Below are positions 1 through 38,447 of a DNA stretch of 64,000 nucleotides, in pieces. Origin of the DNA: Arthonia radiata. Taxonomy: Eukaryota; Ascomycota; Arthoniomycetes; Arthoniales; Arthoniaceae. Both the position numbers and the translations under genes were made by a program. Location: assembly GCA_002989075.1 (NCBI GenBank), contig PSQN01000006.1, forward strand, positions 372,001-436,000, read 5' to 3'. Under the pieces are notes generated by a model. The model worked only from the letters and a program-made list of their open reading frames with translations. It had not been told where the DNA came from and ran no database searches. The first letter of the stretch is position 1; each line of letters opens with the position of its first letter.

Positions 1-3000
1 AAGCAGGACCTTGAAATCCGGCAATTCGTCCTGCTTTAATGTATGCGCTACGGAGGGAGTAATATTTGCAAAATTGACGCCCGCCGTCTTCATGAACGCA
101 CTGATGTCACCCATGATGTCCTCATCCGAAGGCACACAGACACAGCCACCGGACATGAGCGTGGTCAAAATGTCCTCGACACTGGGGTCGAACACGTAGG
201 GTGCGAACTGCAACACGCGAGAATCAGATCCTCGTTTGATCAAAGGAGCGCGAGCTATAGCACCGGTTGCAAAGCTCTTATGTTGTACTGCAAAGGCTTT
301 GGGGGTACCCGTGGTTCCTGATGTGGTAAGTACATAAAGCAAGCTGTCCGGAGTGACAAGTCTGCACTGGGTCGCTGCAGCAGGTTGAAAAGTGTTGATA
401 GTTTTGTCGCTGACGACAATTGTCTGCCAGGGTGGATCCGGAAATATTTTGTCTTGCATGGAAGAACAGAGGACAACGTTGATCTTCGCATCGCGGGTAA
501 TGTCTTCCAGACGTGCTCGTGGATCTTTTGGTGACAAAGGTGCAAAGGCGCTGCCTGCTTTGATGATAGCTAAGATACTCAATGGCGCCCACATTGATTT
601 CTCGAAGAGGACACCAACAACACTCCCTGGTTGCACACCCCACCGGGCCATCTCTCCTGCTAAGCCGTCGGACAACTTGTCCAAGGCTGCGTACTCCAGG
701 CCGCCGTGCCTAGAATATATGGCTGGAGAGGTTGGGCAGCGTTTTATTTGCTCTTGAATCAACTCATGAACGCAGACTTTAAAAGCTTTATGAGGCCTTG
801 CGTTCCACCAAGACATGGCGGACTTGTCTGCTTTGCTCGCGAGATCTAGGTCACCAACTCTAGTGTCTCTAGTCACTGCGCTAAGTTCACTGAAGGTCTG
901 CTCGAATTGCTCAAGGATTCTTCGAGTTTGTAGGGGAGAGATGACAGCGCTGTCAAATGTGGCGATGATCTCGACTTGTGATTTTCCAGGCGCAAGGGTA
1001 AGAACTAGCGGGTATTCATGTAAGGATCGCTCGACTTCTACTAGTCTTATGCCATCCTCATCTGACGTTTTCGCTGTCTCAACTTGAACAATCAAAAGCG
1101 TGCGGAACGAGGCGGCGTTTTTGACGTCCTGGTCGATGGCTAGGATCCGCGAGAGGCCAAATTGCTCGTATGGCATCATGGTCGAGAACTGTTCTTGGAG
1201 GCCGTCTAAAAAGCTGGAGACTGTTTGGGCACGGTCAACTCTGACCCGAATGGGCAAAGTTGTGACTGTGGGGCCAACAACATCTTGCAGCTCAGAAGGT
1301 AAGGAATTGCGTCCATGGAGGGAATTCCCGAACGTGATGTCGTCGGAACCTTCATATTCTGAGAGTAGCAGAGCCCAGGATGCTCTAGCCATAATCGTTG
1401 CAGTGGTACCAATGGCGGTCCCCGTTGGGGCTGCGATGGTATGCCGCAAACATGTTCCATCTGCTGCCAGATGTCCAGCCCGTGGAAGGTTAGGAAATGA
1501 TGGCGTTGGTGCACTTCTCAGTTGCTCTTGCCAAAATCGACCACACTCATCTTGGTCCAGGACCTCGCAAAATTGCACGAACGTCTCATAGCCGCTTATT
1601 TGTCCCACCGACTCTGTGTTGGGGTGATGATACTCAGTGCGAATGTGATCAACCACGGATTCCAAGCTCCATCCATCGAAGACCGCGTGGTGGAGCGTCC
1701 AGACGAGATGAGACTGACCTGATGATGGATCTCGTACGTGGTGATGCCTGGCTAGAGGCTGACCAGACTGAAAAGAAGCCGCTTTATCTGCAGCTAGAAA
1801 TGGTGCTAGCTCTTGCTTGACCGTTGTCCACTCCGCTTGATGTCGACTCACCACCTGCACAAGGCTGGAAGAGGAGGGCACTATTGTCGTTCTCAGTATT
1901 GGAAAGGCGCTAATTGCACTCTTGCATGCCGTCTTGAATCTTTCGATATTCACAGCAGCTGAGAGATGGAATACGAACTGGCTCGAGTACAGGGACGGTA
2001 GCGCTAGCGATACCGAAAACAAGCCTGCTTGGAGAGCTGTGCAAGGGAAGACACCCTCGACATCCTCTCGATCGTAACCATGGTTTTCCAGTGCGGACCA
2101 GATCTGTGATGACTCATCTTGTGCAAGCGAAAGTGAGGCTGAGACGCCGTTTGGTTTGAGATCATTCTCATCGGCGGCGGCGGCAGTGACAGCAGGAGCT
2201 TCCTGCATTGCCATGGCCATGCCAGATAGCTTTGGATTCCTGAACACTTTTTCTGTGGTCAAATGATAACCTTCCTTATTGGCCATTGTTACTACTTTCA
2301 TAGCCCTGAGCGAGTCCCCGCCAAGTCGAAAGAAGTGTGCGTCTGGCGCGAGACTCCGGTTCGTAAATTGAAGGACCTGTCTCCAGATCTGGGCCAGTAC
2401 CGCTTCTACAGGTGAAAGGTCATCATCGTTCCCATGATCTGTTCGAAATTTGGAATAATGATCCTTGCCGAGACACAAGAGCATGCGTCGGTCGAGTTTC
2501 CCCGTAGGAGTGAGGGGCACCTCCTTCAGAGGTATCCAGGCGACCGGCGACATGTAGGAGGGAAGCTCCTCTGCGATGCGTACACGAATTGCTTCGACTT
2601 CTAGCTCCATCGAACGAGCCATAAGTGCGGTGTCACCATTAAGCTGCCGTTGGAGACTGCCTTGGGTATTGGGATTGTAGAAGAAGCCAGTCAGGTTGTC
2701 AGTCCCATGTAGATCGAGCACTTCCAGGAAAACATGTGCTCCAGGGAGTCGAGTGTGCTGTTGCAGTTTGGTCTCAATATCCTCAAGCTCTATACGTTGG
2801 CCACGAAGTTTGACCTGGCGGTCACGTCGACCTACGAAGACGATTTCGCCGTTATTGGCAAATTGTGCCATATCGCCGGTTCTATAGCACCGTCCCAACT
2901 GTTCTAGGCTCGAATTCCAATCTTGTGCCCATGGTGGGGAATCATGGAATAGTCCTGCACTGTCCACTTGGTTGTTGATGTAATTCCGCGCTATTCCAGG

Positions 3001-4638
3001 GCTTTCCACTACTAGTTCCTCTATAGCTCCTACTGGAGCAAGCTTATTCGGATTGTCTAGGAGCGCAATCCAAGCACGGCTGTTCATGGGGAACCCAACC
3101 CTAATTGCGTCATCGTCCGCGCGAATGGCTCTCTTAGCGACGCAGGCCACTGTAGTTTCCGCAGGGCCGTAGACTATAACGAAGTGTAGTACACCTCCCC
3201 ACACCGCCACAAGATCTTGGGTCACTCGCTCACCGCCAGAGATGAGTGTTGTCAGACACGGTACATCGGATGGTGACAACAATCGCAACACTGTAGGAGT
3301 GAGTAGGACAGCGTTGGCCCTGAAGTTGCGTATTGATTCTGTCAACTTATTCAAACGATCTCCATCCGAAGGAATACACACGCAACCGCCACATATCAAC
3401 GTCATCAGCATCTCTCCGAAGGCTGCATCGAACGCGTAAGACGAGAATTGGTAATATCGAGTCATGTTGCTTATGCCGGAGAGCTTAGCCAAGGCCAACA
3501 GACTGGAGCAAATCGATTTGTGTTCAAGTTGGATTCCTTTCGGCGTACCTGTGGTACCGGACGTGAAGATAACGGCTGCCACAGCGGTGGCACTGACCTT
3601 TATCTGATGACGTTCGTTCCCCGCGGAAGTCGACATTGATGAATGAGATACAACAATCACGCGAGATGCAAAGCTCGTTGCTCTGTCTCTTTGCGTAGAT
3701 GAGCTAAGCACGATATCGGCCTTGACCTCACTCGCTAGTGTCTGGAGTCGACTTGTGGGATGCGAAACGTCCATGAGCATGAACGAGCACCCACTCTTAA
3801 GAACTCCCAGCATGGCAACAACAGTCCAGAGCGTTTTTTCGAAGCACAGAGGGATACAATCTCCCGATTGAACTCTCGCCTCAAGCAGAATGGAGGACAG
3901 ACGCGAGGACAGAGAGTCAAGCTCTGCGTATGTAAGCACGCCGTCCCAAGACTCCACAGCCTTTGAGTTTGGCGTCTCGAGCGCTCTCTGTGCAAAAATG
4001 TCATGAACTGTAGATAACACAATTGAAGGGGCTTGCTGGTTCCATCGCTGCAGGTCTCGTCGATCCAGATCGCAGATCAAGTCGAGGTCCTGCAGTCTCC
4101 GGCCATCACTCACTGCAACCAGCAATTGTCTGGTAACATGCATCATTTGACTGAGAAATCTCGTTGCGATCGGAGAGCCCTCTCCGTGGATTCCTAGACC
4201 TAGCGAAACGGATCTTTTTGACTTCTCTACCGTGCAGAAAATTTGACGTGGGATAGAAGCGCCGTCTGGCCTTTCTTCGGTAGCTGAGCCAGTTGTCACT
4301 CCGCGGTAGGTATTCCAACTCTCCAAACTGTCTGTATACATCCAGAAGGTATGCATCTCGTCTGTCGATGCTCTGTCCATCGGATGAGAGCTTTCAATGC
4401 TTTTGAGAAGATCGTGCGTACTGCTTTCTTGATCAAATTGAAGGCGAACATCCCAGAGTCGCCCGGATGTACTGGTGCGGACATGTATTGCGGGTGTCGG
4501 AGTTTGTAAATGGATAGAAAGTAGAACTCCCAAGCTACCAGCGACCGCAATCCACGCCGGCCATCTGTCGTTTTCAACGTGAAACTCCTCTTGCACACTG
4601 GCTTGATGATCTAAGAACATTTCCGCGGCGATCGCCAT
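1..4638 (-). CDS. Non-ribosomal peptide synthetase, C-terminal part beyond window
   Basis: Continuous intronless frame on the minus strand from ATG 4638 to base 1 (1546 codons, no stop), so the gene continues past the left edge. Domain order: a partial condensation domain (about residues 20-200), A1 (about 209-700; core TSGTTGTPKG, YGPAE, YRTGD, terminal GKLDRR), a T domain (LGGDS, Ser near 776), a full C domain (HHAVFDG near 985), then A2 from about 1290 (core TSGTTGTPKA), cut by the edge. By eye the A1 pocket reads D-A-G-T-I-G-V-V-A-K. No epimerase or methyltransferase domain is seen in this part. The frame stays open for about 70 bp upstream of the ATG, so a short upstream exon is possible. 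It assembles at least two residues of a peptide in the cytosol; the product is unknown. It is divergent from the second NRPS and probably shares its promoter. Confidence 0.93.
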   Translation of the reverse strand, partial: MAIAAEMFLDHQASVQEEFHVENDRWPAWIAVAGSLGVLLSIHLQTPTPAIHVRTSTSGRLWDVRLQFDQESSTHDLLKSIESSHPMDRASTDEMHTFWMYTDSLESWNTYRGVTTGSATEERPDGASIPRQIFCTVEKSKRSVSLGLGIHGEGSPIATRFLSQMMHVTRQLLVAVSDGRRLQDLDLICDLDRRDLQRWNQQAPSIVLSTVHDIFAQRALETPNSKAVESWDGVLTYAELDSLSSRLSSILLEARVQSGDCIPLCFEKTLWTVVAMLGVLKSGCSFMLMDVSHPTSRLQTLASEVKADIVLSSSTQRDRATSFASRVIVVSHSSMSTSAGNERHQIKVSATAVAAVIFTSGTTGTPKGIQLEHKSICSSLLALAKLSGISNMTRYYQFSSYAFDAAFGEMLMTLICGGCVCIPSDGDRLNKLTESIRNFRANAVLLTPTVLRLLSPSDVPCLTTLISGGERVTQDLVAVWGGVLHFVIVYGPAETTVACVAKRAIRADDDAIRVGFPMNSRAWIALLDNPNKLAPVGAIEELVVESPGIARNYINNQVDSAGLFHDSPPWAQDWNSSLEQLGRCYRTGDMAQFANNGEIVFVGRRDRQVKLRGQRIELEDIETKLQQHTRLPGAHVFLEVLDLHGTDNLTGFFYNPNTQGSLQRQLNGDTALMARSMELEVEAIRVRIAEELPSYMSPVAWIPLKEVPLTPTGKLDRRMLLCLGKDHYSKFRTDHGNDDDLSPVEAVLAQIWRQVLQFTNRSLAPDAHFFRLGGDSLRAMKVVTMANKEGYHLTTEKVFRNPKLSGMAMAMQEAPAVTAAAADENDLKPNGVSASLSLAQDESSQIWSALENHGYDREDVEGVFPCTALQAGLFSVSLALPSLYSSQFVFHLSAAVNIERFKTACKSAISAFPILRTTIVPSSSSLVQVVSRHQAEWTTVKQELAPFLAADKAASFQSGQPLARHHHVRDPSSGQSHLVWTLHHAVFDGWSLESVVDHIRTEYHHPNTESVGQISGYETFVQFCEVLDQDECGRFWQEQLRSAPTPSFPNLPRAGHLAADGTCLRHTIAAPTGTAIGTTATIMARASWALLLSEYEGSDDITFGNSLHGRNSLPSELQDVVGPTVTTLPIRVRVDRAQTVSSFLDGLQEQFSTMMPYEQFGLSRILAIDQDVKNAASFRTLLIVQVETAKTSDEDGIRLVEVERSLHEYPLVLTLAPGKSQVEIIATFDSAVISPLQTRRILEQFEQTFSELSAVTRDTRVGDLDLASKADKSAMSWWNARPHKAFKVCVHELIQEQIKRCPTSPAIYSRHGGLEYAALDKLSDGLAGEMARWGVQPGSVVGVLFEKSMWAPLSILAIIKAGSAFAPLSPKDPRARLEDITRDAKINVVLCSSMQDKIFPDPPWQTIVVSDKTINTFQPAAATQCRLVTPDSLLYVLTTSGTTGTPKAFAVQHKSFATGAIARAPLIKRGSDSRVLQFAPYVFDPSVEDILTTLMSGGCVCVPSDEDIMGDISAFMKTAGVNFANITPSVAHTLKQDELPDFKVLL

Positions 4639-6063
4639 GTTTGTGATTCGGTGCGATGCCGTTTGGGCGATTTGTTTTACAACAGAAGGAATGGCTTGAA
4701 CGTCTGAGGTTTACGCACGTATGTTGATCGTAGATTCTGGCATGCTTTCCTGCATCAAGGTTCTGGGATTGTAGCCGACTAGCGCGGGATTGCTTCTAAC
4801 ATGCGACACGAGCATAAGGTCGACATCTCCTTGTCTGCTTACCCGCAATGTAGAGGCATAGCGTTGCCGCTAAGTGTGCCGCCTTGATTGATCCACATCA
4901 GCACTAGAACCAAGGTTGACTGCACGAGTGCACTGCGCCGCCGCCTCATGAGTGCTTAGCGTTGCCGCTGCATAGTTTAATCGATTGCCTGTTATGCCAT
5001 CGATGGTACACGCTTTACTAGGCCAACTGCACGCTTATGACCTCAAGTCTTGCATGCCTTTTGAGTAGGTGGCTCAATTGCTAGCGAATAGCCGCGCGGA
5101 AACGGCCGCGCTCGCTCCATTTGGGGCCCTCATTGACTGGGACGCTTATGTGTCTGCGTGTGTTGAGAGTCTCGTCGGATCGAGTGTTGCCTTGGCAAAG
5201 TGAGTGCCACCGAGGTCAGGCGGGGATACTGCGGACTCTGCGACGCCGAGAAAAGGTCAATACAACATGGGATCGACCGACGCAGAGGAGACAGCTCTCC
5301 GGCACACCCCGCCGTGTATGGCTGGTTTCCAATTTGCATGTTAGACAGGCTTGGGGTTTATGGTTTCCAACTGGCACAGTATCTGCACGGTATGAGATTC
5401 TGCCCTCAAAGTATATGATGGGACGTTGGGTGCACGCGTCGTTGGCAAGAGCGACGCGTTCGAATTGTCACGACCTGCCAATCGTGGCAGCCCAGGCGCC
5501 CGATGAAGTTTAGCGCCATATTGCTCCCGCATTCCAATCTCATTCCAATCTCACTCAGCCTGCGCAGACCCTTCCTTTGGCAGTACGTCGTTTCGTACTA
5601 TTGAATGGGTTCTTCGAATGCTACTAGAGACGATGCTGTGCGCTTGAACAACGCCGAACATGACGTGTATTACCAGCATCAGAAGCGCGCCGCTTAATGC
5701 GTGCACCCGTACGAGTGTTGTGTACTTGGGCGATAGAGCTGACAACCGTTCAGAGCATGGTGTTGCCGCGCGCTTATCACCAACAACTATCGTGAGGAAG
5801 AAGAGGACGCGACATGCACGAAAGAAGGTCGGCAAGATGTAAGCCCATCAAGTGTCGGAAAAGGTAATGTTTCCGTCTCGGCGGCAACGCTAAACCATGT
5901 CCACGAGGCTGATTCTGCACGACTACGTTAGCACTGAATTCGCGATGACTATTTTTCTTCGGCAAGTGTGCCTAGGACACACAACACACCAACTCAATAC
6001 CACATCACTTCGACGTTCCTCGTTACGCACTATAGGCAAGACAGACGCACAGGTGTTCGTAGA
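4639..6063. promoter_or_regulatory. Shared divergent NRPS promoter region
   Basis: This 1.4 kb lies between two outward-facing NRPS genes and holds no convincing gene; its small frames lack family motifs. It has two exact copies of TAGCGTTGCCGCT (4859-4871 and 4957-4969) and an inverted repeat ACGCGTCG / CGACGCGT (5434-5441 and 5452-5459, 10-bp spacer). Such paired sites could bind a cluster regulator, but no regulator gene is present in the window, so the role is inferred. Confidence 0.5.
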
Positions 6064-9000
6064 ATGGTTACTCTGCATGATCCTGAACGAGTTTCCCATG
6101 CCACACATCTCAACAAGGGCGAATCACTCTGTGTAGCCAAGGAATACCGACATTCCGGCAGGCATAGCGAACATGATCTGTTTTTGAGAGAGGACGTCCC
6201 TCATTCAAAGTCGAGACTTCTCGCTAGTAGGCCTACAGGCAATCATCAACATCGAGCATACAAGTCGATCGATCATGTAGTACAAGACATAGAATGGCCC
6301 AAGAATGTCGCGCCATACATTGTGGTTCAATCTGCGTGGGCAATACTTCTTTCTTGGTATGGCGAGTCAGCCGAGACTGCGTTCGGGATCGTGGTACGTG
6401 GAAATGAGGATCCGGTGTCGGGGACAGAACCGCTTGCTGGAAAAACTACCATAATCATTCCCGTTCGTGTTGCGGTCGAGAGCTGCGAGACCTTAAAGAC
6501 ACTAGAGCAGCAAATACGACAGCAAGCTATAGACTCTGCTCCAGTCGTACAGGCAGGGCGACAGGACACACGGCACCTCAACGAGGAGGCTGATCTCGAT
6601 TGGCAATCACGATCGGTGCTGACGGTGCAGATCACGACTGAGGCTGATGATCCAAGTGCCTCGAAGCCTATTCGCAGGCAACGGGCGCAATCTCAATGTA
6701 AACCGAATGAGCGGAGAGCCAATGAGATTGGACTGTCTGATAGTGACGATACCGATCTTGAGATCTTCGACACGTACGCAATCACTCTCCACTGTCAAGT
6801 ACGGAGATCTTCCCTACTTCTGAGAATGGTGTTCAATGCAAGTATACTCAGCGAGCAGGTCGCAATACAAGCAACGCACCACTTCGATCACATTCTGCGC
6901 CAGATCTGCCGTGCCGATAGTGCCAGCACCAAAATCAATGATCTCGACGTGATGAGTACGGAGGACTTACGTCGAGTCTGGAACTGGAACGCGAAGGTAC
7001 CTGAGGCGACACATGCATGCGTTCACGACCTGTTTGCCGAGAGCGTTCGTCGATATCACCATAGGCCCGCTATTTGCGCCTGGGATGGCGAATTGAACTA
7101 CGAGCAAATGGACAGCCTCTCAACCCAATTATCACATCGCCTAATTCACATGGGTGTTCGTCCTGGAGATGTGCTCCCGTTGTGTTTTGAGAAGTCCATG
7201 TGGATGCCAGTCACGCAATTTGCTGTTATGAAGGCAGGTGCGGCATCCATGGGAATTGACCCTTCCCAGCCGAAGGAACGCATCAAGACGATGACAGAAA
7301 GTGTTGAGTCTGGGCTTATCTTATGCGCTCCGTCGACGACTTCCCTGATTTATTCCATCACTGGGCGAAAACCATTCGTTGTGGAGAACGAGACCGTAGC
7401 AAACTCTATCGGAAAAGGAGACGAGGAAAGTTTTGAGACAATTTTGCCCCACGTCAAGCCGAGTGACCTACTCTATGTGGTATTTACTTCTGGAACTACG
7501 GGTGTCCCTAAGGGTGCAATGATAACACACTCGAATGCTGCATCAGCAGTACAACTTCAGAGAGACCTCCTGCATATCACACCAACGTCAAGGGTTGCAA
7601 ATTTCTGTTCATATGCTTGGGATGTAGCTTGGTCCGATCTCATTCACACACTCGCCGCGGGAGCCTGCCTCTGCATACCGTCTGAATATACCAGAAAGCA
7701 TGACCTTGTCGATTTCATGATCAAGAAACAGGTGACTTGGGTGGAACTTACCCCATCGGTCGCCGCGATTTTGGAGTTGAATGCAGTACCAACGCTTGAT
7801 ACTGTCATCCTACTCGGCGAACTCGTAGATTTCGACAAGTTACCACACCTGCGAGGAGTTCCAAACACAATTATTACATATGGGCCAACTGAGTGTACAG
7901 TAACGGCTACAGGAGTTGTCAGGAACTTTGACACTGCCAAAGCAAGTATCGGCTGGGCATGTGGAGCAACGACTTGGGTTGTCGACCCCAATGGAGATGC
8001 CCTCACGCCCGTCGGCTTATGCGGAGAGCTGCTCGTCGAAGGACCACTGGTTGGAAGGGGATATCTTAACAACGCTGAAAAGACGGCAGCTTCTTTCATT
8101 GAGGATCCAAGTTGGTTGCTTCGTGGTGGGCCAGGTATGGAAGGCCGCCGCGGACGGCTTTATCGGACAAGGGACCTCGTCCGATATAACGACGACGGTC
8201 AACTGATTTATCTCGGGAGAAAGGATAGTCAGGTCAAGATCAATGGTCATCGTACGGAGTTAGGCGACGTTGAACACCACATCTGTCGAGTTCTTGAACA
8301 GGTTCCGACAATGACAGGTGCTGTTGCAGAAGTTGTCACCCCAAAAGCCACGCAACGCCCGATATTGGTGGCTTTTCTGCTCATGTCTAAGGTGAGCGCG
8401 GATGAACTAGGAAAACAAGCTGCCTCGATCATCGAAACCGTGGAGCTCGAAATGAGCAAGAGAGTGCCAAGCTACATGGTCCCAGGTGTATACATTCCCA
8501 TAAGTGAACTTCCAATGACGTCCAATGGCAAAACAGACCGAAGGGCACTTCAAAAGATGGGAGCCACACTGAATCCTAAATCACTTGCGTCCCTGTATGC
8601 TACCAAGTCCGCACAGCACATTGAACCAAGTGGTGAGCCTGAGAAGCAGCTGAGGGAGGTTTGGGCGTCAATACTCAACCTTCCAGTGAGCGACATTGGT
8701 GCTGAAGACCACTTCGTGCGCCTTGGTGGTGATTCTGTTGCCGCGATGCGGCTAGTCGCGGCTGTGAGAAGGGAGGGGAAGGTGTTGACAGTCCCGGATA
8801 TCTTCGGCCATCCAAGACTCCGAGAGATGGCCAATCTCATCTCGCAAAGCGAATTAGTATCCGGATCTATGCAGTCGTTTTCCTTGTTGAAGACAGGCGT
8901 AGAACGGGACGACGTCTGTCGCCAAGCAGCAGAATTGTGCTATGTGAGCGCTTCGCAAGTGGGCTCTTCACAGATCGAGGACATCTTCCCCTGCACAGCA

Positions 9001-12000
9001 CTTCAGGAAGGTCTGTTAGCCATGACCGCCAGGAGCCCGGGCAAGTATGTTTCGTGCCAAATCGCTGAGCTGAAAGATGAAGTTGACCTGGTGAGGTTTC
9101 AGGAGGCGTGGCAAACAGTCTCTGAAAGAGCTTCCGTTCTTCGCACTCGTATTGTTGACCTCCCGGGGCAAGGCCTAGTACAGGTCGTAATTGCGGGACC
9201 ATTGCAATGGCAGACTTACTCCTCTCTGAACGAATACCGAAACAAAGTGGGCGCTGGGAAGGACCTGTTGGAGAATGGTGTCCAGACTTCGATGGGCTTG
9301 GGCGCACCATTATCACATCTGGGAATCATAAATGATGGATCAGAGAGGAGGCAATTCGCATTGACTCAGCATCATGCGATATACGATGGCTGGTCCATGC
9401 CTATGCTACAAAGGGAGGTGGAGAAGGCATATCGAAATGAAAGAGGACAACTTTCCTCACTTCCACTTCAAGGTTTCGTGAAACATATGTTGGACCAATA
9501 TGGCGAAGCAGCGACGGCTTTCTGGAAGCGAAAGTTTGCTGGGGTAGAAGCATCGCAGTTCCCTGCCCTTCCAAACAAGACGTATCAGCCAGAGGCAGAT
9601 AAACTAATCATCCATTCGATCAGTAGCGTTCGTTGGCCCACTTGTGGGGTCACACCTTCTTCCGCACTTCGGACCGCTTGGGCGACGCTCGTCTCCTGGT
9701 ATGTGAGCTCCCCAGATGTAGCATTCGGAGCTGTCGTGTCCGGCCGCCAAGCTCCAATACCAGGGATCGAGGACATAGCAGGACCCACCATCGCCACTGT
9801 TCCGGTTCGCGTCTTGGTCCGTGGGACTATCGATGAACTACTACATCAGGTGCAGCAGCAGGCTATGGAAATGGTTCCGTTCGAGCAATACGGTTTGCAG
9901 CACATACGCCAGATCAGCCAAGACGCAAACCATGCGTGTGACTTCCAGACGCTTTTACTGATACATTCACCGGTCGAGGCCAGCACAGTAGACAGCCCCG
10001 TTTTCAAAACCGATCTCGATCAGCAACAAGGTCTTCACGCAGAGAACTCGTATGCGATGATGCTTACTTGCCAAATGTCGGAGTCGAGCTTGCACATGCA
10101 GTTGAGTTTCGATTCCAGCGTCGTCAAAGAGGAGTGTGCGACACGGCTCTTTCAGCAGCTAGAGCACATACTTGGTCAAATTGGCTCCGTCTCTGGCTCT
10201 ACGGAAATGGGCCAATTGTACAGAGTCAGCGAGCGAGACTTGAAAGACATCTGGCAGTGGAACGCGACGGTGCCGAACACAGTGGTTGGTTGTGTTCACA
10301 GCATTTTCGCAGAGAGAGTCTCTGAAACCCCCGACGCGATCGCCGTATGCGCATGGGATGGCGAGCTGACGTATGGTCAGCTCCATCAAGCTGCCACATT
10401 GCTGGCAAGCCACTTTGTTAGCTCGGAGCTCAAAATTGGACCAGGTGTTATCGTACCACTGTACTTCGAGAAACCATTGTGGGTACCCGTAGCAATACTT
10501 GCAGTAATGCAAGCCGGTGCTGCGTCTGTCCTTCTGGACTCAACATTGCCTCGACATCGGCTGAAGAGTATTGTCAGCCAACTATCAGCCAGTGTTATAT
10601 TGACATCGAAGTCATGCGCGAAGCTCGCGGCCGAGATCACTGATGCCCCGAAGGTAGAAGTGGGCGGTCCTCTGAATCAGTTTCAGCGATTCCAACCGAT
10701 CCGACAACTGCCGACAGTCAGCCCTTCATCCACCCTTTACATTGTCTTCACGTCTGGAAGTACAGGCGCTCCCAAGGGAGCAATCATCACCCACGCCAAT
10801 TTCTGCAGCGCGATTCGGCACCATCAACAAGAGCTCGGGCTCGAAAGATCCTCGCGAGTTTTCGACTATACATCGTACTCCTTCGATGTTGCATGGTCGA
10901 ATGTACTACACACCTTGACCATCGGTGCATGTCTCTGCATCCCCTCGGAGTACGAACGCACAGCAGATATCAATGGCACCATCCATCGGCTACGAGCAGA
11001 TTTCATCCATCTCACCCCAACTGTTGGACGATCGCTCGATCCTGCAACATTGAAAGGCCTGAAGAAGGTTTTGTTCATTGGCGAGGCGCTCAAGGCCAGT
11101 GATGTAGCCAGGTGGAAGACTTCCGGTGCTGAGATATACAATACATATGGCCCTGCTGAATGCACTGTCACGAGCACGGTCGAAAATGTCCATCCAGGCC
11201 AGGTAGAGGAGTCCGGGAGCAACTTCAGTGGCCCTGGTATCGGCAAAGGTGTTGGCGCGTTAGCTTGGGTAGTCCAACCTTCTGCGTCTGACATGCTGGC
11301 TGCCATCGGGACTGTAGGAGAGCTATGGCTCGAAGGGCCGATAGTGGGCGCAGGCTATCTGGATAATGCTGAGATCACAGCCAATGCTTTCGTCGAAGAC
11401 CCCAAATGGCTATTGCGCGGAATTCCGGAACGGGTATCTGGTCGCCGTGGACGCCTTTACAGAACGGATGATCTAGTCTATTACAAACCAGACGGGTCTC
11501 TTGGGTTCATTGGGCGAAAAGATACGCAGGTCAAGATCAACGGCCAGCGCTTGGAGCTGGGAGAGGTTGAATACCACGTTCGTCAAATGCTCCCTGTTGA
11601 GGCAGTGTCACAGATCGTAGCGGACGTGATCATTCCGGATGCTACGCAAAGCCAGACTCTAGCGATCTTCCTGGCAATGTTCGACGACACCGGAGGAGCT
11701 GGACTGGTTGAGAGTACTGCCCTGATGATAGCGAACCTTCGTAAGGAGCTGCTAAAGCGACTGCCCTCATACATGGTCCCCAGTGCATACATTCCTCTTG
11801 CCAAGCTGCCCATGACCGCAACAGGGAAGACAGATCGACAGAAACTTCACGAACTAGGTAAAGCTTACAATCCACTGGCGCTTTTGTCTTCAAACGCATC
11901 GACCTCTGTTACTATGCTAACCGATACGGCGAGAACACTACGAGATATATGGGCTAGGCTGCTTGATATTGAATCTGATCTTATTACTGCAGATCAACAT

Positions 12001-14010
12001 TTTTCAGATGTTGGGGGCGATTCGATCAAAACCATGTCCCTTGCCATGGCAATACGCAAGCATTTTAACATCAGCATTGGAGTACCACAATTAGTCCGAC
12101 AGCATCATAGCTTGCATGAACTGGCAAACCTGATCGACAGCCTGTTGCAAGGTCAGCATGTTGAGGAGCCAACGCCGATTAACCTGGAACAAGAGGTAGA
12201 GGTGCTGGTGAGCAAGATTCAATGTGATCGTCCCGCTTCTGTCGGAACCGTGTTCCTTACCGGGTCAACTAGGTTTTTGGGAACCCAGATTCTCCGCCAT
12301 GCACTCACGAAGCGAGCATTCGGCAAAGTTGTGGTACTCGTACGCAGTCTCCACGCACAGAAAGGTTTGGACAGAGTGAGACAGGCAGCCAAATTAGCTG
12401 GGTGGTGGAAGGACTCGTTTGCTTCCGCGATTGAAGTCTGGGATGGCGACCTCTCCGCAGAAAGACTGGGCCTGAATGATTCGCAGTGGGATGCGCTGAG
12501 CGGTCTTCCAAGTACACATGGCACTATTGATGCGATCATTCACAACGGTGCAGTAGTGCATTGGAGCACCAGCTACGACCAACTGAAAGATGTAAACGTT
12601 GGTTCTACAGTGCAGCTTCTACAAGCCGCCATGATCTCCCCTTTTGTGAGGAGCTTTGTGTATGTTTCTGGTGGCCTTATCACGGACAGTAGGAACTGGA
12701 CCAAGGAAGAGGAAAAGCAGGCCAGCGGATACGATCAAACCAAGTATGTGTCAGAGAGACTAGTAAGTGCTGCTGCCGCCAAATCTCGCAAGCAAGGAAC
12801 GAAGTTTTCGGTCGTCAAGCCGGGCCAGATTATTGGCGATGCGTACACAGGCATAGCTAACACCGACGATTTCTTGTGGAGGGTCGTCATGTGCGCGACC
12901 CGGCTTGGCGCTCGCCCGGTCGAATCAGAGACATCGTGGCTCTCAGTATCCGATGTCCGCCACGTCACGGAGACAATCCTGTGGCATGCGACAGACAGGA
13001 GGAATGAGGACTTCGTCCACATCAGAAGGGGGATTTGGGTCAATTCCTTTTGGGCTGCGCTCGAGGATCAATTAAAGGTGCAGCTGCGACCGGTCACCTG
13101 GGACGAGTGGATCGGGCTTGCGAGGCAAGACATGGCGGAAGAGCAGGAGCTGCATCCCCTCTGGCCCGTACAACAATTTCTGGGCGCCCTCGGGACGAAA
13201 GTCGCTGATGATGTCAGGTGCGATTGGGAGATGCAAGAATTTGTCGCCGCTGCGCGGCAGAACATTGAATACCTTCGAGACAAGGGTTTGACACAAAGCA
13301 ATGGGAATCACGGACGACCAATAAATGGAAGCCTAATCACGAGGACAGGGCACACAAAGTCGATCCAAGTGCTCCCAGCCGAAGATACGGACATGGAGCG
13401 ACTTTTCGAAATCGTCTCGCTGGCTAACGCCCGCAACGAACCCATCCTGGATGCCATGTTTCCCTCGCACTGGACCGCAGCGGGCAGGCAAGCGGGCGGC
13501 GAGCGCATGCGGCTGGCCAAGAACTCAGACCCGCACGCAGTGTACCTGAAGGCGGTCGACAACAGCACGGGCGAGATCGTGGGCGCGGCGAAATGGTACG
13601 TGCTCGACAACGTCATCCCGGACGCCAGCGCCGTGCGCGGTTCTGAGAGGCACTTTTTCGAAAGCGCGGCAGACTGGGCGTATTTCACCCGGTTTGTGCC
13701 GCTTTTCTTAGAGCGGCGGAATGCTGCCATCACGCGGACGCGGGGCAATGTGGTGGGGTTGGATACTTTGTCGGTGCATCCGGCGCATCAGAGGAAGAAA
13801 GTAGGCGATGCGCTGGTCAAGTGGGGAACCCGAAAGGCCGATGCGATGGGTGTCGAGACGATTGTGGAGAGCAGCGTGGCGGGGAGGGGATTGTATGAGA
13901 AGAATGGATTTGTGTTTCAGGAGGACTGTGAGGTGCAGGTGCCTGAGGTGGTGGATCGACCGCCTGGTAAGTTTGCTTGGTTGATCAGGCCGAAGCAGGC
14001 CGAGCATTGA
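6064..14010 (+). CDS. NRPS: partial C-A-T-C-A-T-reductase-GNAT fusion
   Basis: Single intronless frame of 2648 codons from ATG 6064. The frame is open upstream to a GTG at 5968, so the start is uncertain. Order: truncated C domain (about 77-305), A1 (320-830; TSGTTGVPKG, YGPTE, GKTDRR), T1 (GGDS, Ser 891), C (968-1400; HHAIYDG 1103-1109), A2 (1411-1925; TSGSTGAPKG, YGPAE, GKTDRQ), T2 (Ser 1987), thioester-reductase-like NAD-binding domain (2063-2400; HNGA, Tyr2223 and Lys2227 of YxxxK), then a GNAT acyltransferase domain (about 2434-2648). Expected chemistry is assembly of two residues and reductive release to an aldehyde or alcohol; the GNAT could acylate an amine. The reductase glycine loop reads TGSTRFLG (Arg2070) and the GNAT loop QRKKVG, both unlike the consensus. 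Both A domains replace Gly in the usual YRTGD motif. The final 600 bp looks richer in G+C than the rest. Confidence 0.94.
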   Translation: MVTLHDPERVSHATHLNKGESLCVAKEYRHSGRHSEHDLFLREDVPHSKSRLLASRPTGNHQHRAYKSIDHVVQDIEWPKNVAPYIVVQSAWAILLSWYGESAETAFGIVVRGNEDPVSGTEPLAGKTTIIIPVRVAVESCETLKTLEQQIRQQAIDSAPVVQAGRQDTRHLNEEADLDWQSRSVLTVQITTEADDPSASKPIRRQRAQSQCKPNERRANEIGLSDSDDTDLEIFDTYAITLHCQVRRSSLLLRMVFNASILSEQVAIQATHHFDHILRQICRADSASTKINDLDVMSTEDLRRVWNWNAKVPEATHACVHDLFAESVRRYHHRPAICAWDGELNYEQMDSLSTQLSHRLIHMGVRPGDVLPLCFEKSMWMPVTQFAVMKAGAASMGIDPSQPKERIKTMTESVESGLILCAPSTTSLIYSITGRKPFVVENETVANSIGKGDEESFETILPHVKPSDLLYVVFTSGTTGVPKGAMITHSNAASAVQLQRDLLHITPTSRVANFCSYAWDVAWSDLIHTLAAGACLCIPSEYTRKHDLVDFMIKKQVTWVELTPSVAAILELNAVPTLDTVILLGELVDFDKLPHLRGVPNTIITYGPTECTVTATGVVRNFDTAKASIGWACGATTWVVDPNGDALTPVGLCGELLVEGPLVGRGYLNNAEKTAASFIEDPSWLLRGGPGMEGRRGRLYRTRDLVRYNDDGQLIYLGRKDSQVKINGHRTELGDVEHHICRVLEQVPTMTGAVAEVVTPKATQRPILVAFLLMSKVSADELGKQAASIIETVELEMSKRVPSYMVPGVYIPISELPMTSNGKTDRRALQKMGATLNPKSLASLYATKSAQHIEPSGEPEKQLREVWASILNLPVSDIGAEDHFVRLGGDSVAAMRLVAAVRREGKVLTVPDIFGHPRLREMANLISQSELVSGSMQSFSLLKTGVERDDVCRQAAELCYVSASQVGSSQIEDIFPCTALQEGLLAMTARSPGKYVSCQIAELKDEVDLVRFQEAWQTVSERASVLRTRIVDLPGQGLVQVVIAGPLQWQTYSSLNEYRNKVGAGKDLLENGVQTSMGLGAPLSHLGIINDGSERRQFALTQHHAIYDGWSMPMLQREVEKAYRNERGQLSSLPLQGFVKHMLDQYGEAATAFWKRKFAGVEASQFPALPNKTYQPEADKLIIHSISSVRWPTCGVTPSSALRTAWATLVSWYVSSPDVAFGAVVSGRQAPIPGIEDIAGPTIATVPVRVLVRGTIDELLHQVQQQAMEMVPFEQYGLQHIRQISQDANHACDFQTLLLIHSPVEASTVDSPVFKTDLDQQQGLHAENSYAMMLTCQMSESSLHMQLSFDSSVVKEECATRLFQQLEHILGQIGSVSGSTEMGQLYRVSERDLKDIWQWNATVPNTVVGCVHSIFAERVSETPDAIAVCAWDGELTYGQLHQAATLLASHFVSSELKIGPGVIVPLYFEKPLWVPVAILAVMQAGAASVLLDSTLPRHRLKSIVSQLSASVILTSKSCAKLAAEITDAPKVEVGGPLNQFQRFQPIRQLPTVSPSSTLYIVFTSGSTGAPKGAIITHANFCSAIRHHQQELGLERSSRVFDYTSYSFDVAWSNVLHTLTIGACLCIPSEYERTADINGTIHRLRADFIHLTPTVGRSLDPATLKGLKKVLFIGEALKASDVARWKTSGAEIYNTYGPAECTVTSTVENVHPGQVEESGSNFSGPGIGKGVGALAWVVQPSASDMLAAIGTVGELWLEGPIVGAGYLDNAEITANAFVEDPKWLLRGIPERVSGRRGRLYRTDDLVYYKPDGSLGFIGRKDTQVKINGQRLELGEVEYHVRQMLPVEAVSQIVADVIIPDATQSQTLAIFLAMFDDTGGAGLVESTALMIANLRKELLKRLPSYMVPSAYIPLAKLPMTATGKTDRQKLHELGKAYNPLALLSSNASTSVTMLTDTARTLRDIWARLLDIESDLITADQHFSDVGGDSIKTMSLAMAIRKHFNISIGVPQLVRQHHSLHELANLIDSLLQGQHVEEPTPINLEQEVEVLVSKIQCDRPASVGTVFLTGSTRFLGTQILRHALTKRAFGKVVVLVRSLHAQKGLDRVRQAAKLAGWWKDSFASAIEVWDGDLSAERLGLNDSQWDALSGLPSTHGTIDAIIHNGAVVHWSTSYDQLKDVNVGSTVQLLQAAMISPFVRSFVYVSGGLITDSRNWTKEEEKQASGYDQTKYVSERLVSAAAAKSRKQGTKFSVVKPGQIIGDAYTGIANTDDFLWRVVMCATRLGARPVESETSWLSVSDVRHVTETILWHATDRRNEDFVHIRRGIWVNSFWAALEDQLKVQLRPVTWDEWIGLARQDMAEEQELHPLWPVQQFLGALGTKVADDVRCDWEMQEFVAAARQNIEYLRDKGLTQSNGNHGRPINGSLITRTGHTKSIQVLPAEDTDMERLFEIVSLANARNEPILDAMFPSHWTAAGRQAGGERMRLAKNSDPHAVYLKAVDNSTGEIVGAAKWYVLDNVIPDASAVRGSERHFFESAADWAYFTRFVPLFLERRNAAITRTRGNVVGLDTLSVHPAHQRKKVGDALVKWGTRKADAMGVETIVESSVAGRGLYEKNGFVFQEDCEVQVPEVVDRPPGKFAWLIRPKQAEH

Positions 14011-15205
14011 GAGGGCAGGTATAGCAATGAGTGAACGATGAAGTGTCTTCCAAGAGCCTAGGCAGAAGCCCACAAGCTGCGACGGCGTATGGGTTTACTG
14101 GCGATGCTGATGAGCGTGCGTAAAGACGGCTGTTTGTCTGCCTCATGGACGTGCGAGGGATCTGTCTAGAAGGTTGGATGATGATACTCATGCAGCACTA
14201 GCATCATGATGACAGCGTTCGTTCATCTTACATCCTTGCAAAATTGTATTTGCGCCAGTTGTTGCTGACCAATGTCTATGTTACGCCTCCAGTGTCTCCT
14301 TATTTTCTGTATACGCGCATGATTTGGCCCAGCGCATTTCAGCTCTTTAAAGGCGAATTTGGAATCATGCGCGTCGTATGTAGGGTTGGGAGAGGGTATC
14401 GAAATACCAATGATACTGAGTCTTCGCAAGAATGTCCGGCGTGGATCTTTGGTTAATGACCGACTGGTGGCGTTCTGTGAATACTTGAGTGTGCTTGAAA
14501 AGTAGTGAAGATGGTGCAGAGGCCTGCATGCCCGCGGTTATTCACATGAGCGATTATGAAAGGGAGGAGGCTTGCTGAGGGAGGACAATGGACGTGTCGC
14601 AGCGTAGTCTTCGCTGGAAATTAGTGCGTGTTGAAACTCGCGCAACGTCGCAATGAATATTTGGAGTCCGTTCGAATGGAGCCATGTCAGAATGTACATA
14701 AAGAAAGCAAGTGAGGCTAAAAGACTACGACGCGGGTCAACAGCTGGATTACGCACGTCTGGAATTACGCGCTATCACGTGAACAAAGGTCACCTGATCG
14801 TACCCGGTATCAATGATGGTCAAAGCTCATATCTTTCTTGGCATCGACACCATCGCCTGAGGGAAGGCGGTAGTCTCAGTGGCTTCAGTATCATCCATTG
14901 GGCATCCAGTATGCATCAAGACGAACACTAAGCTGGAGAGAGCATGGTTCAATGGGCACCAGAAATAAAGACAGGCAAGCAATAATGATGAATTTGAGTC
15001 TAATTTGAACTCATAAGTGGTGGCCTGGCGGGGCACCACCCCGCAAGACATGGACGCTGCGTATTTGCCCGAACCGCGATGTAAACTTCAAGCTGATATG
15101 AGCTCGGAAGCGTAGATCGAATGGTAAGGAACTACTGCTGCAGAATTCCTGTGGAATCTCCAATCTCCCTGTTACTCACACCTATAGTGGTGAAAGATCT
15201 TAAAC
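14011..15205. other. Intergenic, no gene seen
   Basis: About 1.2 kb between the NRPS stop and the SDR start. Only short frames without family motifs occur. It should hold the NRPS 3' end and the SDR promoter, but I see no distinct element. Confidence 0.6.
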
Positions 15206-16728
15206 ATGCTCGCCCGTCGTCTGCTCCTTTCTCGCCCGTGTTTTCCACCTTCTAGATCTATCGTACGACGTAGCTTCAGCACGAACAACTCTCTCGCTAG
15301 GTCAGTGATCGTCACGGGAGCTGCCCAAGGTATTGGAAGAGCGGTCGCTCTGCAGCTGGCAGAAGATGGCTACGACGTCTGTGTCAATGATATTGATGCG
15401 AAGAAGAAGGAGGTTGAAGAAGTAAGTCTGCAACCTGTTGACGAGCAGTATATGGCGACTTTACGTGATGCTGAAGACACCTGTTGTTGGCTCACGGCAT
15501 TGCATTGGGGATCTGCACCCACTGAGATCACCGATAAGTGCTAAATACATCACCCAGGTTTGCCACCAAATCACCACCACCCACGCCCGCAAAGCCCTCC
15601 CCTCAACCGGCGACGTCTCCTCCTATGATTCCGTCGAGGCGATGGTGAAAGCCTCCGTCGACCATCTCGGCCCTCTCAACACTATGGTCGCCAACGCGGG
15701 CATCGTCCGTAAGTTCCTGTATCACTCGCGTCCAGCACCATGCCACCCGTCCAACCCATACCCACCATGGTACCACCAGCCTCCAACACCGCGTTTCACC
15801 ACACATTCACTCATCACCACCCACACCCAACCCATCATCAGCCCTCACAACAAACCCTAACACCACCCAGACATAAGCCCCATAGCAACCACCACACAAG
15901 CGGACCACGACCGCGTCTTCGCCGTCAACTACTTCGGCGTCCACAACTGCTACCGCGCCGCAGCGGAGCAAATGGTGAAACAAGGTTCGCCGCCCGAGCA
16001 CCCTCCCGTCGAGACGAAGCCGGAGAGCGCCAGCAAGCCCCGCGAGAGCAAGGGCGTGTATAAGTTGATTGCTGCAAGTAGTGTTGCTGGTTATGTGAGT
16101 TTTTTCTCATCTCGATTCCCCTTTCGATACTGGGTTGGGGATTTGGGATGGGGAGTGTCTGGGGGGAGGAGAGAAGTGGTTGAGGGATCAGTGGAAGTGG
16201 AGAGTGGGCAACTAAGGAGGGAAGATAGGCTGACAGGCAAACAGCGCGCCTTCCCCATGATCGGCGCATACGCAGCAAGCAAGTGGGCGGTCCGCGGCCT
16301 CACGCAGAGTTTCGCGCTGGAATTCGGCGCGAAAGGGATTACGTGTAACAGCTATGGTGCGTCTCCACCCTTTCTCACCCACCCATCTCCCATTCCTTCC
16401 CGTCCCTTCTTTCACCAACCCTTCGATTCTCACCCATTCCTCACCCCTCCAACCACTCCCTCTCACCAATCTCCTGAAAAATCACTAACTCACCCCAGCA
16501 CCCGGCATCGTCGGCACACCCATGTGGGCGAACCTCGACGCACAGCTCGGGGCCATGTACGGCCGCGAAAAGGGCGCCACTCTGAAAATGGAGGCCGAGA
16601 AGGCGGTGATGGGGCGTGTAAGCGTGCCAGAAGACGTGGCGGGGTGCGTGAGTTGGTTGGCGGGGCCGGGGAGCGACTTTGTGACGGGGCAGACGGTCGT
16701 GGTGGATGGGGGGACGTTCATGACGTGA
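15206..16728 (+). CDS. SDR oxidoreductase, acetoin/diacetyl-reductase type, mitochondrial-like presequence
   Basis: Five exons: 15206-15421, 15558-15708, 15871-16094, 16245-16356 and 16499-16728, giving 310 residues. The N-terminus (MLARRLLLSRPC...RRSFST) is basic, Ser-rich and lacks acid residues, like a mitochondrial presequence. A classical SDR fold follows: TGAAQGIG cofactor loop, NAG, catalytic Ser in AASS, YAASK, then APGIVGTPMW and the C-terminal DGG. The APGIVGTPMW block is typical of acetoin/diacetyl and 2,3-butanediol reductases; the substrate here is not proven. It is co-directional with the NRPS 1.2 kb upstream, so a pathway role is possible, but the targeting signal argues for primary metabolism. 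Its four introns (136-162 bp, C/T-rich) are two to three times longer than others in the window. Confidence 0.88.
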
Positions 16729-17526
16729 GGGGTTTGAGTTGGCGGAATGGTGTTGTGCGGGGTGTGGAGCTCAGGCAGGGGTTTAGAGAGCGGAAAAAGA
16801 GGGACCGTGAAGAGAGCTGGGACAGGGTGAAGGAGTGTATATGTATAGAAATGATGAGATGGGAGCAGCTCGATGAGCGATTGCTCTGCTATTCTTGCAT
16901 TGCTACTCGACCATATTCGCTCTCGACTCACCTCACACTGTCCGTCTTACCCATACTTGATTGACGTCTGCTGCACTTACCGTAAAGGAACAAACGGCTT
17001 CTCCATGCTCTAACTGCTAGTTTGAGTCCATGGGTAGCCCGAGGCTCGCTGATTGGCGTGGATGGTTTAGTTGTCAGCGCACGGCTAGGTCGCCAGGTCT
17101 GGAGACGCTTGCAGGAGACTGCTCCTATGTAAGCTGGACGACAAGCCACAGCGATACTGTCTGCGCGTAAAGGACTCGTGACTGCATGTTGTAGTGCAGC
17201 CATTCTAGTCGTCCGTCTTCGAGCGTCTCAAGGCTACTCGCTCTATTTGGGCATGGAAGTCGCTCATCGCAGTCGCTCATTGAAACCGCTACCCATTGAT
17301 AGTAGCGCTCCGTATTTTGGGACTGACCATACCGTGTGTGACCGAGCGTTTGCGCTCTGCCGATCGGTTTGAAAGCCCTTCATGTCTGTGAGACTGTCGA
17401 GGCCATGCACATCTTGAGCATTCAGGTTTCGCTGATTCGTTGCCGGTAATGTGGACTTCATTTCGTCATTCACGTCCTGCAATCGGCCCAAGCAGAGCCT
17501 CAAGTCAGCACACCAACACCGCCACC
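16729..17526. other. Convergent intergenic region, no gene seen
   Basis: About 800 bp between the 3' ends of the SDR gene and UPF2. I see no RNA gene, repeat or credible frame. Confidence 0.6.
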
Positions 17527-26242: not shown

Positions 26243-28101
26243 ATGTTGTTTCTTCCCTTTGCAGCCTTTGTGGGCATTGCTTCTGCAGCCTTCACGCCTT
26301 GTCCATTACTAGGGCCTCGCTTTCCGAAGCCCTCGGGCATTGCGGATTCCCCCGTTACCCAAAAGGCACTCAGTCAGCTTCAATCGGTCCTGGACGAAGG
26401 CATTCGCACATCCAATACTTCCAATGGCCCCATCTACCCCAACACGACCTCTTTCAGCATTGTCCTGTTCGACGCGTCTCCTGTTGCTAGTGAAGATGAT
26501 GCCTTCTTCTTTGAGTATCACCACACAGCCTCGGCGCTGCAGGCTGCCTCAAGCGGCGCACGAGACGTCAGCGTTGACAGTGTTTACCGTATTGGTGGGC
26601 TCACCGAGGTCTTCAATGTCTGGACATTCTTAGCGGAAGCGGGTGGAAGCCATTGGGACGAGCCGGTCACGCAATGGATACCGGAGCTTGCAGCAGCAAG
26701 CGCATCGTACGACGCCCTGCAACAATCTGTTGACCATGTGGATTGGAACGACGTGACTCTTGGAGACCTCGCCGCCAATCTAGCCGGGATACAGAGGAGC
26801 TGTACGTATATCTGCGACGAGAGTCATAACTCCCAACCACTGACATAGAGGTCTAGGTCAATCCAGCAGGTCTGTTCATGGACCAGATCTGGGCACCACG
26901 GAAAGCTGCACCTACAGCCGAGATGGTATGCAGCAGACGTTTGAACACGCCAGATGAAAGGCCACTAATCAGGTCTACAGCATTCTTCAACGCAGTCGCA
27001 CAGCAGCCACCTGCTCACCCGGTTGCATCAACGCCTGTCAAATCAGTCGCCGGCTTTCAGATGCTCGCCTATGCGCTTGAATCAACCTGCAACAAGTCGT
27101 TCGAGACGATCCTCACGGACCGCATCTTGCAGCCGCTGAAGTTGTCACAGACAAGTCTCACTGTCCCGCAGGACCTTACCAATGCCGTAATACCTGTCAA
27201 CGACGTCGCCAGTCTCTGGTCATTGGACCTTGGCGACCAGGCATTGTAAGTTCTCCCGTCTTGGCACAAGATAAGCATGCATTAGCATCCACTTACCATC
27301 ATTCACAGTGCTTCGGGGATCTACTCCAGTGCCGCCGACATGGCCAAGGCCGGCAAGGCCATCCTATCATCCTCGGTCATTCCAAGCACTCTCACACGCC
27401 GTTGGCTCAAGCCTGTGGCCCACACATTGAATCTACTCAACACTGTCGGCAGGCCTTGGGAGATCTATGCCAACGCTGGAGAGATCACTGATCCGGTCGT
27501 GGAAGCTTTCACTGGTCGTGGAAATTTTGGGCTTTACAGCTCTTACTTTGGGGTGGTTCCGGACTTCGACATTGGTTTTGCGATCTTGGCTGCAGACACA
27601 AGTGGCAACCCTGACCTCAACGCTTACTCTGATCTTCTCAGCGATGTGGTCCCGGCTTTCGAGCAGCTGGCGCAGCAGCAGGCCAAGAGCAACTTCGCCA
27701 GTGCCTACACACTCGATGCAGGATCTCTACTAAACCTCACCACTGTGGATCCAAGGGAACCCGGTCTAGTAGTGGAGACGCTTCTCAACGGCGGTCAAGA
27801 TGTGAAGGCTCAATATGCAGAGGCTTTAGGTATCAACACAGCCGCACTGGACTTCCGGCTCTACCCTACGCACCTCTCAGCACCTTCAGATGGTGGATCT
27901 CGCATCGCATTTCGAGCTCTCTTCCAAGCAATCGATGCGCCCGAGGACGGAGGTACTCCAACGTGCGAGACTTGGCGCGAGGCTGACCAGCTTTTCATTG
28001 GGCAGGCGGCTGCAGATCTGTTCGTGTTTGAGACGGACGAGTCGGGAAGTGCTATTGCAGTGGAGATTCCAGCGCTGAGTTTAGTACTGCCCAGAGAGTA
28101 G
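26243..28101 (+). CDS. Secreted beta-lactamase-fold (S12-like) protein, catalytic residues lost
   Basis: Exons 26243-26801, 26857-26925, 26981-27245 and 27309-28101 give 561 residues. A signal peptide is clear (MLFLPFAAFVGIASAAFTPC). The body follows fungal serine-hydrolase/beta-lactamase-related proteins: SVYRIG block, WNDVTLGDLAANLAGI, FFNAV, FQMLAYALEST, ASGIYSSAADMAKAGKAIL and a family-specific C-terminal domain. At the SxxK catalytic position the sequence reads GLTE (residues 119-122), and at the YxN position KSV (about 230-232), so Ser, Lys and Tyr are all absent. It is therefore probably not a hydrolase of the S12 type and may bind a ligand or be a diverged pseudoenzyme. The frame and splice sites are intact. 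Confidence 0.85.
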
Positions 28102-28959
28102 CCTGAGATCATGCACTTGGCACTGGAGGTGTGGGTGCTCTGCGGAAGAGGCTGAGGAGGAAGAAAGCTTGGGTGATGTGAGCCGGGAGATCATTCCTGC
28201 GCGGGAGCGCCAGGATGAAAGCAGTAATGATGATAGACAACTAAATTTAATTCCGACGCGTTCCAGCGGTGCAGCCAAGCTTCTCACCAGCTTGTGTGGT
28301 GGTGAGAAGGAAATTTCCTGATTGGGACACCAAAACGTTGAAGGCGCTACCTCGGATCATGCTCCTGTTGTTGACGTACTCTTCTCCCTTCTCTTTTCCT
28401 GCCACGCATACATGTACGCACCATGTCAGCATTACAAACTGGTCCAGGCGTTCTTTTGCATACACCCGTCTGGGCATCGCCAGTACGCTTCCATACAGGC
28501 GAACACGTTGCGCTTGCATCCACCTCCTTACAGCCTCCCTCTTGGCAAGCGTTGCACAAGCTTCAGGGCTCTCCATAGCCACCTTGGCAGCCGGTCGATC
28601 CTACCGGCCTACTGATCTTCAACCTCTCCTTCACCTCTGCTTTGATATCCTTATCAGTACATCGATGATGCGCTCGCTCATTGTCACTCGTTGTCCCCGT
28701 CTTTTGGGTTCTGGGTCGACGCTGCCAAGCGTCTCACGTTCCACGGGTATCAGAAAAGTCTTGGTAGACGTGTGTATCTCCGGACGCTGAGCCATGTGTC
28801 TGCTTGCGGAGGGTATATTTGGTGACGATGACTGTGCTTTTTGACTGGCGTTGTAGGTCCTGCTATCTTCGTAAGTAGGACGCTCTTCATACGCTTGCTA
28901 TCCATACACATTAGCATTCGCTTCTCTCTAAACCATTCATATCCTATTTCTTCTCCATC
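28102..28959. other. Intergenic, no supported gene
   Basis: About 860 bp. A 173-codon plus-strand frame (28269-28790) shows no domain, has irregular composition and was not called. The region should carry the promoter of the following transporter gene. Confidence 0.55.
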
Positions 28960-38000: not shown

Positions 38001-38447
38001 CGCCAAGGCTTCCACTTGCCTTCAACACCAAGTGAAAGTTGGGAGGTGCGATCACCCATCAACGGGATAGAGCAGGCAGGCATAGCGTTCTACAGCGCCT
38101 CCTTCAACCTCTCCATCCCAGAAGGCTACGATGTACCGCTCTCCTTCGTCTTTCCCCACGCGGGCACAGATGTTACCAGCAACTTCCGTGTGCAGCTGTT
38201 CGTAAACGGGTATCAGTTTGGGGAGTATGTGTCAAATCTGGGACCGGAGGCAGCGTTTCCGGTGCCAGCAGGGATCTTGAATCATGCGGGGGAGAACTGG
38301 GTGGGACTGACGCTGTGGGCGCTTGATAATGGTGGAGCGAGGCTGGAGAGTCTGGAGTTGCAGGCGAATATGCCCGTTTTGAGTGGATTGAGAAGGCCAG
38401 CATTGAGCCCGCAGCCGGCTTGGAGGGAGAGGCTGGGGTCGTACTGA
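35051..38447 (+). CDS. Secreted beta-galactosidase, GH35
   Basis: Exons 35051-35170, 35218-35924, 36048-36269, 36322-36361 and 36486-38447 give 1016 residues, the usual size of fungal GH35 enzymes. A signal peptide ([21 protein letters not shown]) precedes the TIM barrel: [50 protein letters not shown]. The acid/base Glu is in QPENEYG and the nucleophile Glu in AIAELQGGS; both are present. GGSNWGN...SSYDYG closes the barrel, followed by beta-sandwich domains with many N-glycosylation sites. It removes terminal beta-galactose from galactans, arabinogalactan or xyloglucan outside the cell. Exon 4 is only 40 bp, but the conserved SSYDYG join supports it. Confidence 0.94.

Follow-up and report, generated by a model that had tools for sequence, protein, structure and literature searches.

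In the window, that is the whole 64,000-nucleotide stretch of Arthonia radiata DNA analyzed here, one open reading frame encodes a dimodular non-ribosomal peptide synthetase (NRPS) in which a terminal thioester-reductase-like (R) domain is followed in frame by an acyltransferase domain of the GNAT superfamily. Reading of the frame confirmed that both domains are complete and fused in one predicted protein. The best explanation as a whole, which we prefer tentatively, is that the terminal R domain receives the thioester of the assembled peptide and that a captured GNAT transfers an acyl group to an amine on the product. Such a fusion of R and GNAT in an NRPS is provisionally regarded as new.

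The whole NRPS gene, delimited by the frame, Pfam matches and motifs, occupies positions 6064-14010 on the plus strand, from an ATG at 6064 to a stop codon at 14010, and encodes 2648 amino acids when read as a single exon. From stop to stop the frame covers 5938-14010 (2690 codons, with the ATG at 6064 in frame), and since the two other forward frames contain 116 and 105 stop codons over the NRPS stretch, an open frame of this length is not due to chance. Residue numbers count from 42 codons upstream of the ATG. Pfam and reading of the frame give the domain order C*-A-T-C-A-T-R-GNAT, with two stretches each for Condensation (E 3e-49), AMP-binding (E 4e-112) and PP-binding (E 3e-32), as well as matches to NAD_binding_4 (E 5e-37), Acetyltransf_7 (E 1e-7) and Acetyltransf_1 (E 3e-6), the last two both above the cut-off. 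The first element, C* (6238-6972; Pfam and alignment to C2), is the C-terminal half of a condensation domain, which matches residues 210-410 of the C2 segment in the alignment, with 31% identity to the second half of C2; the N-terminal half of this first C domain gave no significant match in 4601-7000. On the same strand follow A1 (7009-8592; Pfam), T1 (8647-8841; Pfam, motif LGGDSV at 8722), C2 (8977-10182; Pfam, motif HHAIYDG at 9370), A2 (10306-11847; Pfam, 44% identical to A1 in the alignment) and T2 (11935-12162; Pfam, motif VGGDSI at 12010). Hence, C, A and T domains stand in the order of a modular NRPS, and the Ppant serine motif GGDS and the HHxxxDG motif are intact. Both A domains keep the Asp of DVAW, which, with the pockets read by eye, we take to be the amino-acid pocket residue. 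Furthermore, the YRTGD of the neighboring NRPS reads YRTRDL in A1 (8170, plus strand) and YRTDDL in A2 (11467, plus strand), a position occupied by Gly in >=95% of 40 bacterial A domains. The initial annotation had described an uninterrupted 8-kb frame that runs from the second T domain through R into a full GNAT; this path is free of stops, but the frame starts well before T2 and also includes C* and a full A1-T1.

The R domain extends to about residue 2453 (13296) and the GNAT domain begins at about residue 2472 (13351), leaving at the seam a linker of about 18-20 residues at 13297-13350 on the plus strand, as read from the frame (GC3 0.43 over the surrounding 30-codon stretch). No in-frame stop codon lies between the two domains and no Met codon between those at 13231 and 13393. 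In addition, no plausible intron was found at the seam, the sole donor matching the patterns in 13151-13450 being located at 13168 (GTACAA); a hidden intron or start codon at the seam was thus ruled out by the sequence scan of this stretch. The earlier statement that neither a stop nor a Met start separates R from GNAT was therefore retained, but the linker is nearer 20 residues than the 30 given before.

The R domain (12238-13296, plus strand) is full length according to Pfam, TIGR01746 (221 bits, cut-off 213.35) and fold match. Its AlphaFold2 model (404 residues, 28 sequences, mean pLDDT 81.8) has the PhqB reductase domain 6nki as best fold match (Foldseek E 3.8e-26, 33% identity), and the same domain is the best sequence match in the PDB (E 3.6e-53). 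Conserved residues were compared by alignment with 85 bacterial R loci, comprising the best 80 of at least 462 confirmed relatives and 5 of 101 plasmid records; the 80 loci were chosen with patterns over these very motifs, [GR] being permitted at the loop position, which biases the sample toward canonical surrounding motifs. Within this sample, the catalytic Tyr and Lys (YDQTK, 12730-12744, plus strand) are kept in 85/85 relatives as in the window R, whereas the second Gly of the NADPH loop TGxxGxxG, present in 85/85, is replaced by Arg (TGSTRFLG, codon 12271-12273, plus strand), and the catalytic Ser/Thr (54 Thr and 31 Ser among the relatives) is replaced by Gly (YVSGG, codon 12670-12672, plus strand). 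Neither the canonical loop nor the full catalytic triad is therefore present. PhqB of Penicillium fellutanum, with the full architecture A-T-C-A-T-R, has like the window NRPS a fungal NRPS-terminal R domain without Ser/Thr at this position. The PhqB domain keeps the loop Gly (TGATGFLG compared with TGSTRFLG) but carries Ala at the Ser/Thr position (YISA in the alignment), and it lacks the GNAT that the window NRPS adds after R. Given the Ala in PhqB, fungal R domains may tolerate the loss of Ser/Thr, whereas the loop Arg looks unusual. With changes at two catalytic or cofactor positions, the window R is best described as a release-type short-chain dehydrogenase (SDR) domain whose predicted redox competence is doubtful. 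A Dieckmann-type R* was also considered; R* is an SDR fold without the active-site Tyr, and since this Tyr is retained here, the window R does not have the usual R* form.

Reductive release had been the reading of the initial annotation. On this reading, R would reduce the thioester with NADPH to an aldehyde or alcohol and GNAT would then acylate the released product, so that an N-acylated dipeptide aldehyde or alcohol, or else an O-acetylated alcohol, would result. The full length of the R domain, the Tyr and Lys shared with all 85 relatives and the similar lack of Ser/Thr in PhqB are consistent with it. Moreover, fungal amino-acid alcohols exist, for example N-benzoylphenylalaninol made by ApmA, and phenylalaninol acetates are known from plants and from an insect-pathogenic fungus, as stated in the available part of PMC7843940. 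However, Arg occurs at the NADPH-loop position in 0/85 relatives and PhqB has Gly there. In this regard, the accessible text of PMC5826065 reports a drastic drop in the activity of a Neurospora CAR when the first two loop glycines were replaced, and describes the second of them as permitting unobstructed dinucleotide binding. For comparison, a Tyr to Phe change in the R domain of the fungal NRPS Lps3 lowered the product, according to the available portion of PMC12571304. With Arg in the loop and Gly at the Ser/Thr position, release to an aldehyde as originally written is not sustained, and we consider a reductive route unlikely, although far from negligible. From the earlier interpretation, the in-frame succession of an R-type domain and a complete GNAT fold is kept, but reductive release is not.

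The GNAT domain (13351-14007, plus strand; Pfam, AlphaFold2, Foldseek) has a complete fold, and its model (222 residues, 10 sequences, mean pLDDT 80.1) contains all core strands of the superfamily. Foldseek matched 512 chains at E <=0.001 (best E 9e-10); the matches include HPA2-like proteins, and arylalkylamine, polyamine, agmatine and puromycin N-acetyltransferases are found in the top 50. By sequence, the closest solved structure is puromycin acetyltransferase, with a weak match (E 7e-4). The CoA-binding motif of GNAT proteins is Q/RxxGxG/A. At the corresponding site (13789-13806, plus strand) the window GNAT reads QRKKVG, with Lys at 13798 instead of the first Gly, compared to Gly in 9/9 aligned stretches from 8 loci; Gly is also found in locus L089, which was left out of the alignment because of its long frame, and in puromycin acetyltransferase. 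Puromycin N-acetyltransferase and the insect arylalkylamine N-acetyltransferases share the GNAT fold with the window domain, but they are free-standing and not fused to an NRPS, and the former has the canonical Gly in its CoA loop where the window GNAT has Lys. Judged from these residues, that is the loop Arg and lost Ser/Thr in R and the loop Lys in GNAT, both end domains could be poor or inactive enzymes. What is known of the family suggests an amine of the product as the most likely group to be capped by the fused GNAT.

The codon composition points to a separate origin of this domain. The GC3 of GNAT is 0.745, compared to 0.533 expected from the codon usage of the NRPS part (sd 0.033, z 6.4); this expectation holds the amino-acid make-up fixed, and 0/5000 draws reached the GNAT value. 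Using the codon usage of five other genes of the window, the expectation is 0.603 (z 4.5). The highest GC3 among 221 overlapping segments of GNAT length (220 codons) in the NRPS part is 0.650, and that among 8 other measured coding stretches of the window is 0.672, both below GNAT, while 20 leave-one-out segments of the NRPS part gave z values between -1.9 and 2.6. The NRPS part itself has a lower GC3 than the five other genes (0.522 versus 0.605, z -7.6), and the neighboring NRPS is similar to it (0.513). Because its composition is unlike that of the NRPS part, the GNAT probably stems from another gene. Residues 2301-2400, still within R, have a GC3 of 0.72 (100-codon segment); the shift in composition has no clean step at the seam, and the exact joint is unreadable from composition.

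These features could also result from an accident, in which loss of intergenic sequence let the NRPS frame continue into a neighboring GNAT gene, and R and GNAT are now losing their function, with no pathway role for GNAT. The differing codon composition of GNAT and the substituted glycines in the cofactor loops of both R and GNAT would fit such a decaying terminus, and recent fusions are not necessarily functional. On the other hand, the 2648 codons are free of stops, and the modeled folds are fairly confident (mean pLDDT 80.1 for GNAT and 81.8 for R). General decay of the gene was checked at 51 A-domain positions that are >=95% identical among 40 bacterial A domains, usable A domains being available from 40/85 loci, so that this test covers the A domains alone. 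Deviations were counted at 8 positions in A1, 7 in A2 and 10 in the first A domain of the neighboring NRPS; the second A domain of the latter, cut at the window end, deviates at 4/21 scorable positions. Hence, A1 and A2 do not exceed the neighboring NRPS, which argues against general gene decay, and the idea was rejected. Altogether, an accidental and recent fusion appears rather improbable to us, but it carries appreciable weight.

The gene is divergently paired with a second NRPS (1-4710, minus strand; Pfam), which has the order A-T-C-A... and runs off the left window end. Its first A domain is preceded by about 220 residues that Pfam leaves unassigned; a truncated C domain was rejected for this N-terminal part, Pfam giving one Condensation stretch in this NRPS and the segment having no BLAST match to other C domains. 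Next downstream of the fused gene lies an intron-containing SDR gene at approximately 15200-16964 (plus strand; Pfam). To the right of the SDR gene follow UPF2 and then ribosomal L1 genes, which is why the right edge of the cluster is probably situated near 14-17 kb and most of the cluster probably beyond the window. The initial annotation had also suggested that the acylated amine could be one formed from the released aldehyde, or else the N-terminus of the product. The former found no support in the part of the window covered, an aminotransferase being absent from the 38 ORF stretches, a subset of the window's ORFs, scanned with Pfam; the cluster continues past the left end. Elsewhere in the window, a vanadium chloroperoxidase N-terminal domain (E 6e-78) adjoins a PAP2-superfamily ORF (E 1.5e-8) at 41827-43935 on the minus strand. 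On the plus strand, beta-lactamase-like ORFs are followed by MFS transporter ORFs at 26857-30216 (some matches below the Pfam cut-off), GH35 beta-galactosidase domains on two adjacent ORFs at 35218-38447 probably belong to one intron-containing gene, and DDE_1 endonuclease and Tc5-type DNA-binding ORFs at 60661-62203 likely represent a transposon or its remnant.

Among known systems, Lys2-type and CAR-type enzymes consist of a single module with the canonical TGxxGxxG loop and contain, to our knowledge, neither C domains nor a GNAT. Their A-T-R order nevertheless has the T-R release logic as well as Tyr and Lys in common with the window NRPS. A further comparison is the asperphenamate type, for which a candidate partner NRPS is present here but cut by the window end. 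A1 and A2 keep the pocket Asp, unlike what would be expected for a benzoate-activating A domain, the pockets again being read by eye. For the Lys2 type, the A-T-R architecture is given in the accessible part of PMC2823734. Asperphenamate is made by two cooperating NRPSs, ApmA and ApmB, one of which ends in reduction (available text of PMC7843940), and the window likewise has two NRPSs; the asperphenamate synthetase is described as ending in a TD domain (available text of PMC10212144). The portion of text on ApmA and ApmB does not mention a GNAT, whereas the window NRPS has one.

An NRPS with an R-GNAT end was not found described among the titles and abstract openings listed for open-access literature on fungal NRPS with GNAT or acetyltransferase domains. 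Surveys that list C-terminal domains, or a choice of architectures, for fungal NRPS contain no acetyltransferase in the accessible parts of PMC2823734 and PMC4205913, and the fusion is absent from the available text of PMC10967133, PMC8433890, PMC10212144, PMC7843940, PMC6941272 and PMC4640141; a term search of PMC8072286 for such a fusion gave nothing. Free-standing acetyltransferases are mentioned, among them a GCN5-related enzyme next to a siderophore NRPS (available part of PMC6941272). Within the open-access literature covered, these searches agree with the previous remark that a fungal family with a GNAT after the reductase is not known. Outside fungi, no R-GNAT fusion was detected in bacteria by phmmer matches to GNAT at E 1e-8 in the ORFs of the 85 R loci (best 80 of at least 462, plus 5 from plasmids). 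Among the plasmid records matching the R plus GNAT query, 0/101 span 80% of that query at a single location, and tblastn with GNAT gave no plasmid match at E 0.01. In bacterial genomes, GNAT was matched in 1/5 at E 0.01 and in 7/396 at E 1e-4, all weakly. A first scan of genome contigs yielded 6 pattern matches with no relative among them, no relative was found in viral contigs, and Rfam gave no match.

According to the explanation that we tentatively prefer, the dimodular NRPS, paired with the divergent second NRPS, would build a dipeptidyl thioester on T2, as would be expected from the family. The terminal R-type SDR domain would receive this T2-bound thioester, and release may be slow, non-reductive or passed to a partner enzyme. 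The GNAT would derive from a separate gene that fused to the 3' end of the NRPS. It would acylate a product amine while the product is still on the enzyme or has just left it, the likeliest acceptors being the N-terminal alpha-amine or a basic side chain. In this scheme the open frame, the domain order, the presence of both end domains at full extent and the distinct GNAT composition are direct observations. In a different version, which we regard as very unlikely, R has given up reduction and would serve for docking or gating, while release would fall to GNAT; the altered CoA loop of GNAT is invoked here to suggest that the T2 peptidyl thioester, instead of acyl-CoA, could serve as its donor, the peptide being transferred to an amine and released as an amide. 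Least credible of all is a transcript or translation boundary that would make R and GNAT two proteins, for example through the in-frame ATG at 13393, because despite the differing GNAT composition neither a stop nor a plausible intron lies between the domains, and this Met is model residue 18, inside the first GNAT helix and past strand beta-1 (model residues 8-12), so that a start there would remove this strand.

If the fusion is used by the fungus, release and capping of a peptide would take place in one protein, or the NRPS would follow an unfamiliar release route; if GNAT itself releases the chain, the NRPS would contain a chain-release domain of the GNAT type. With regard to the altered loops, either R and GNAT domains of fungi can work despite such changes, which would revise how activity is called from sequence, or the terminus would be a release platform with a different chemistry.
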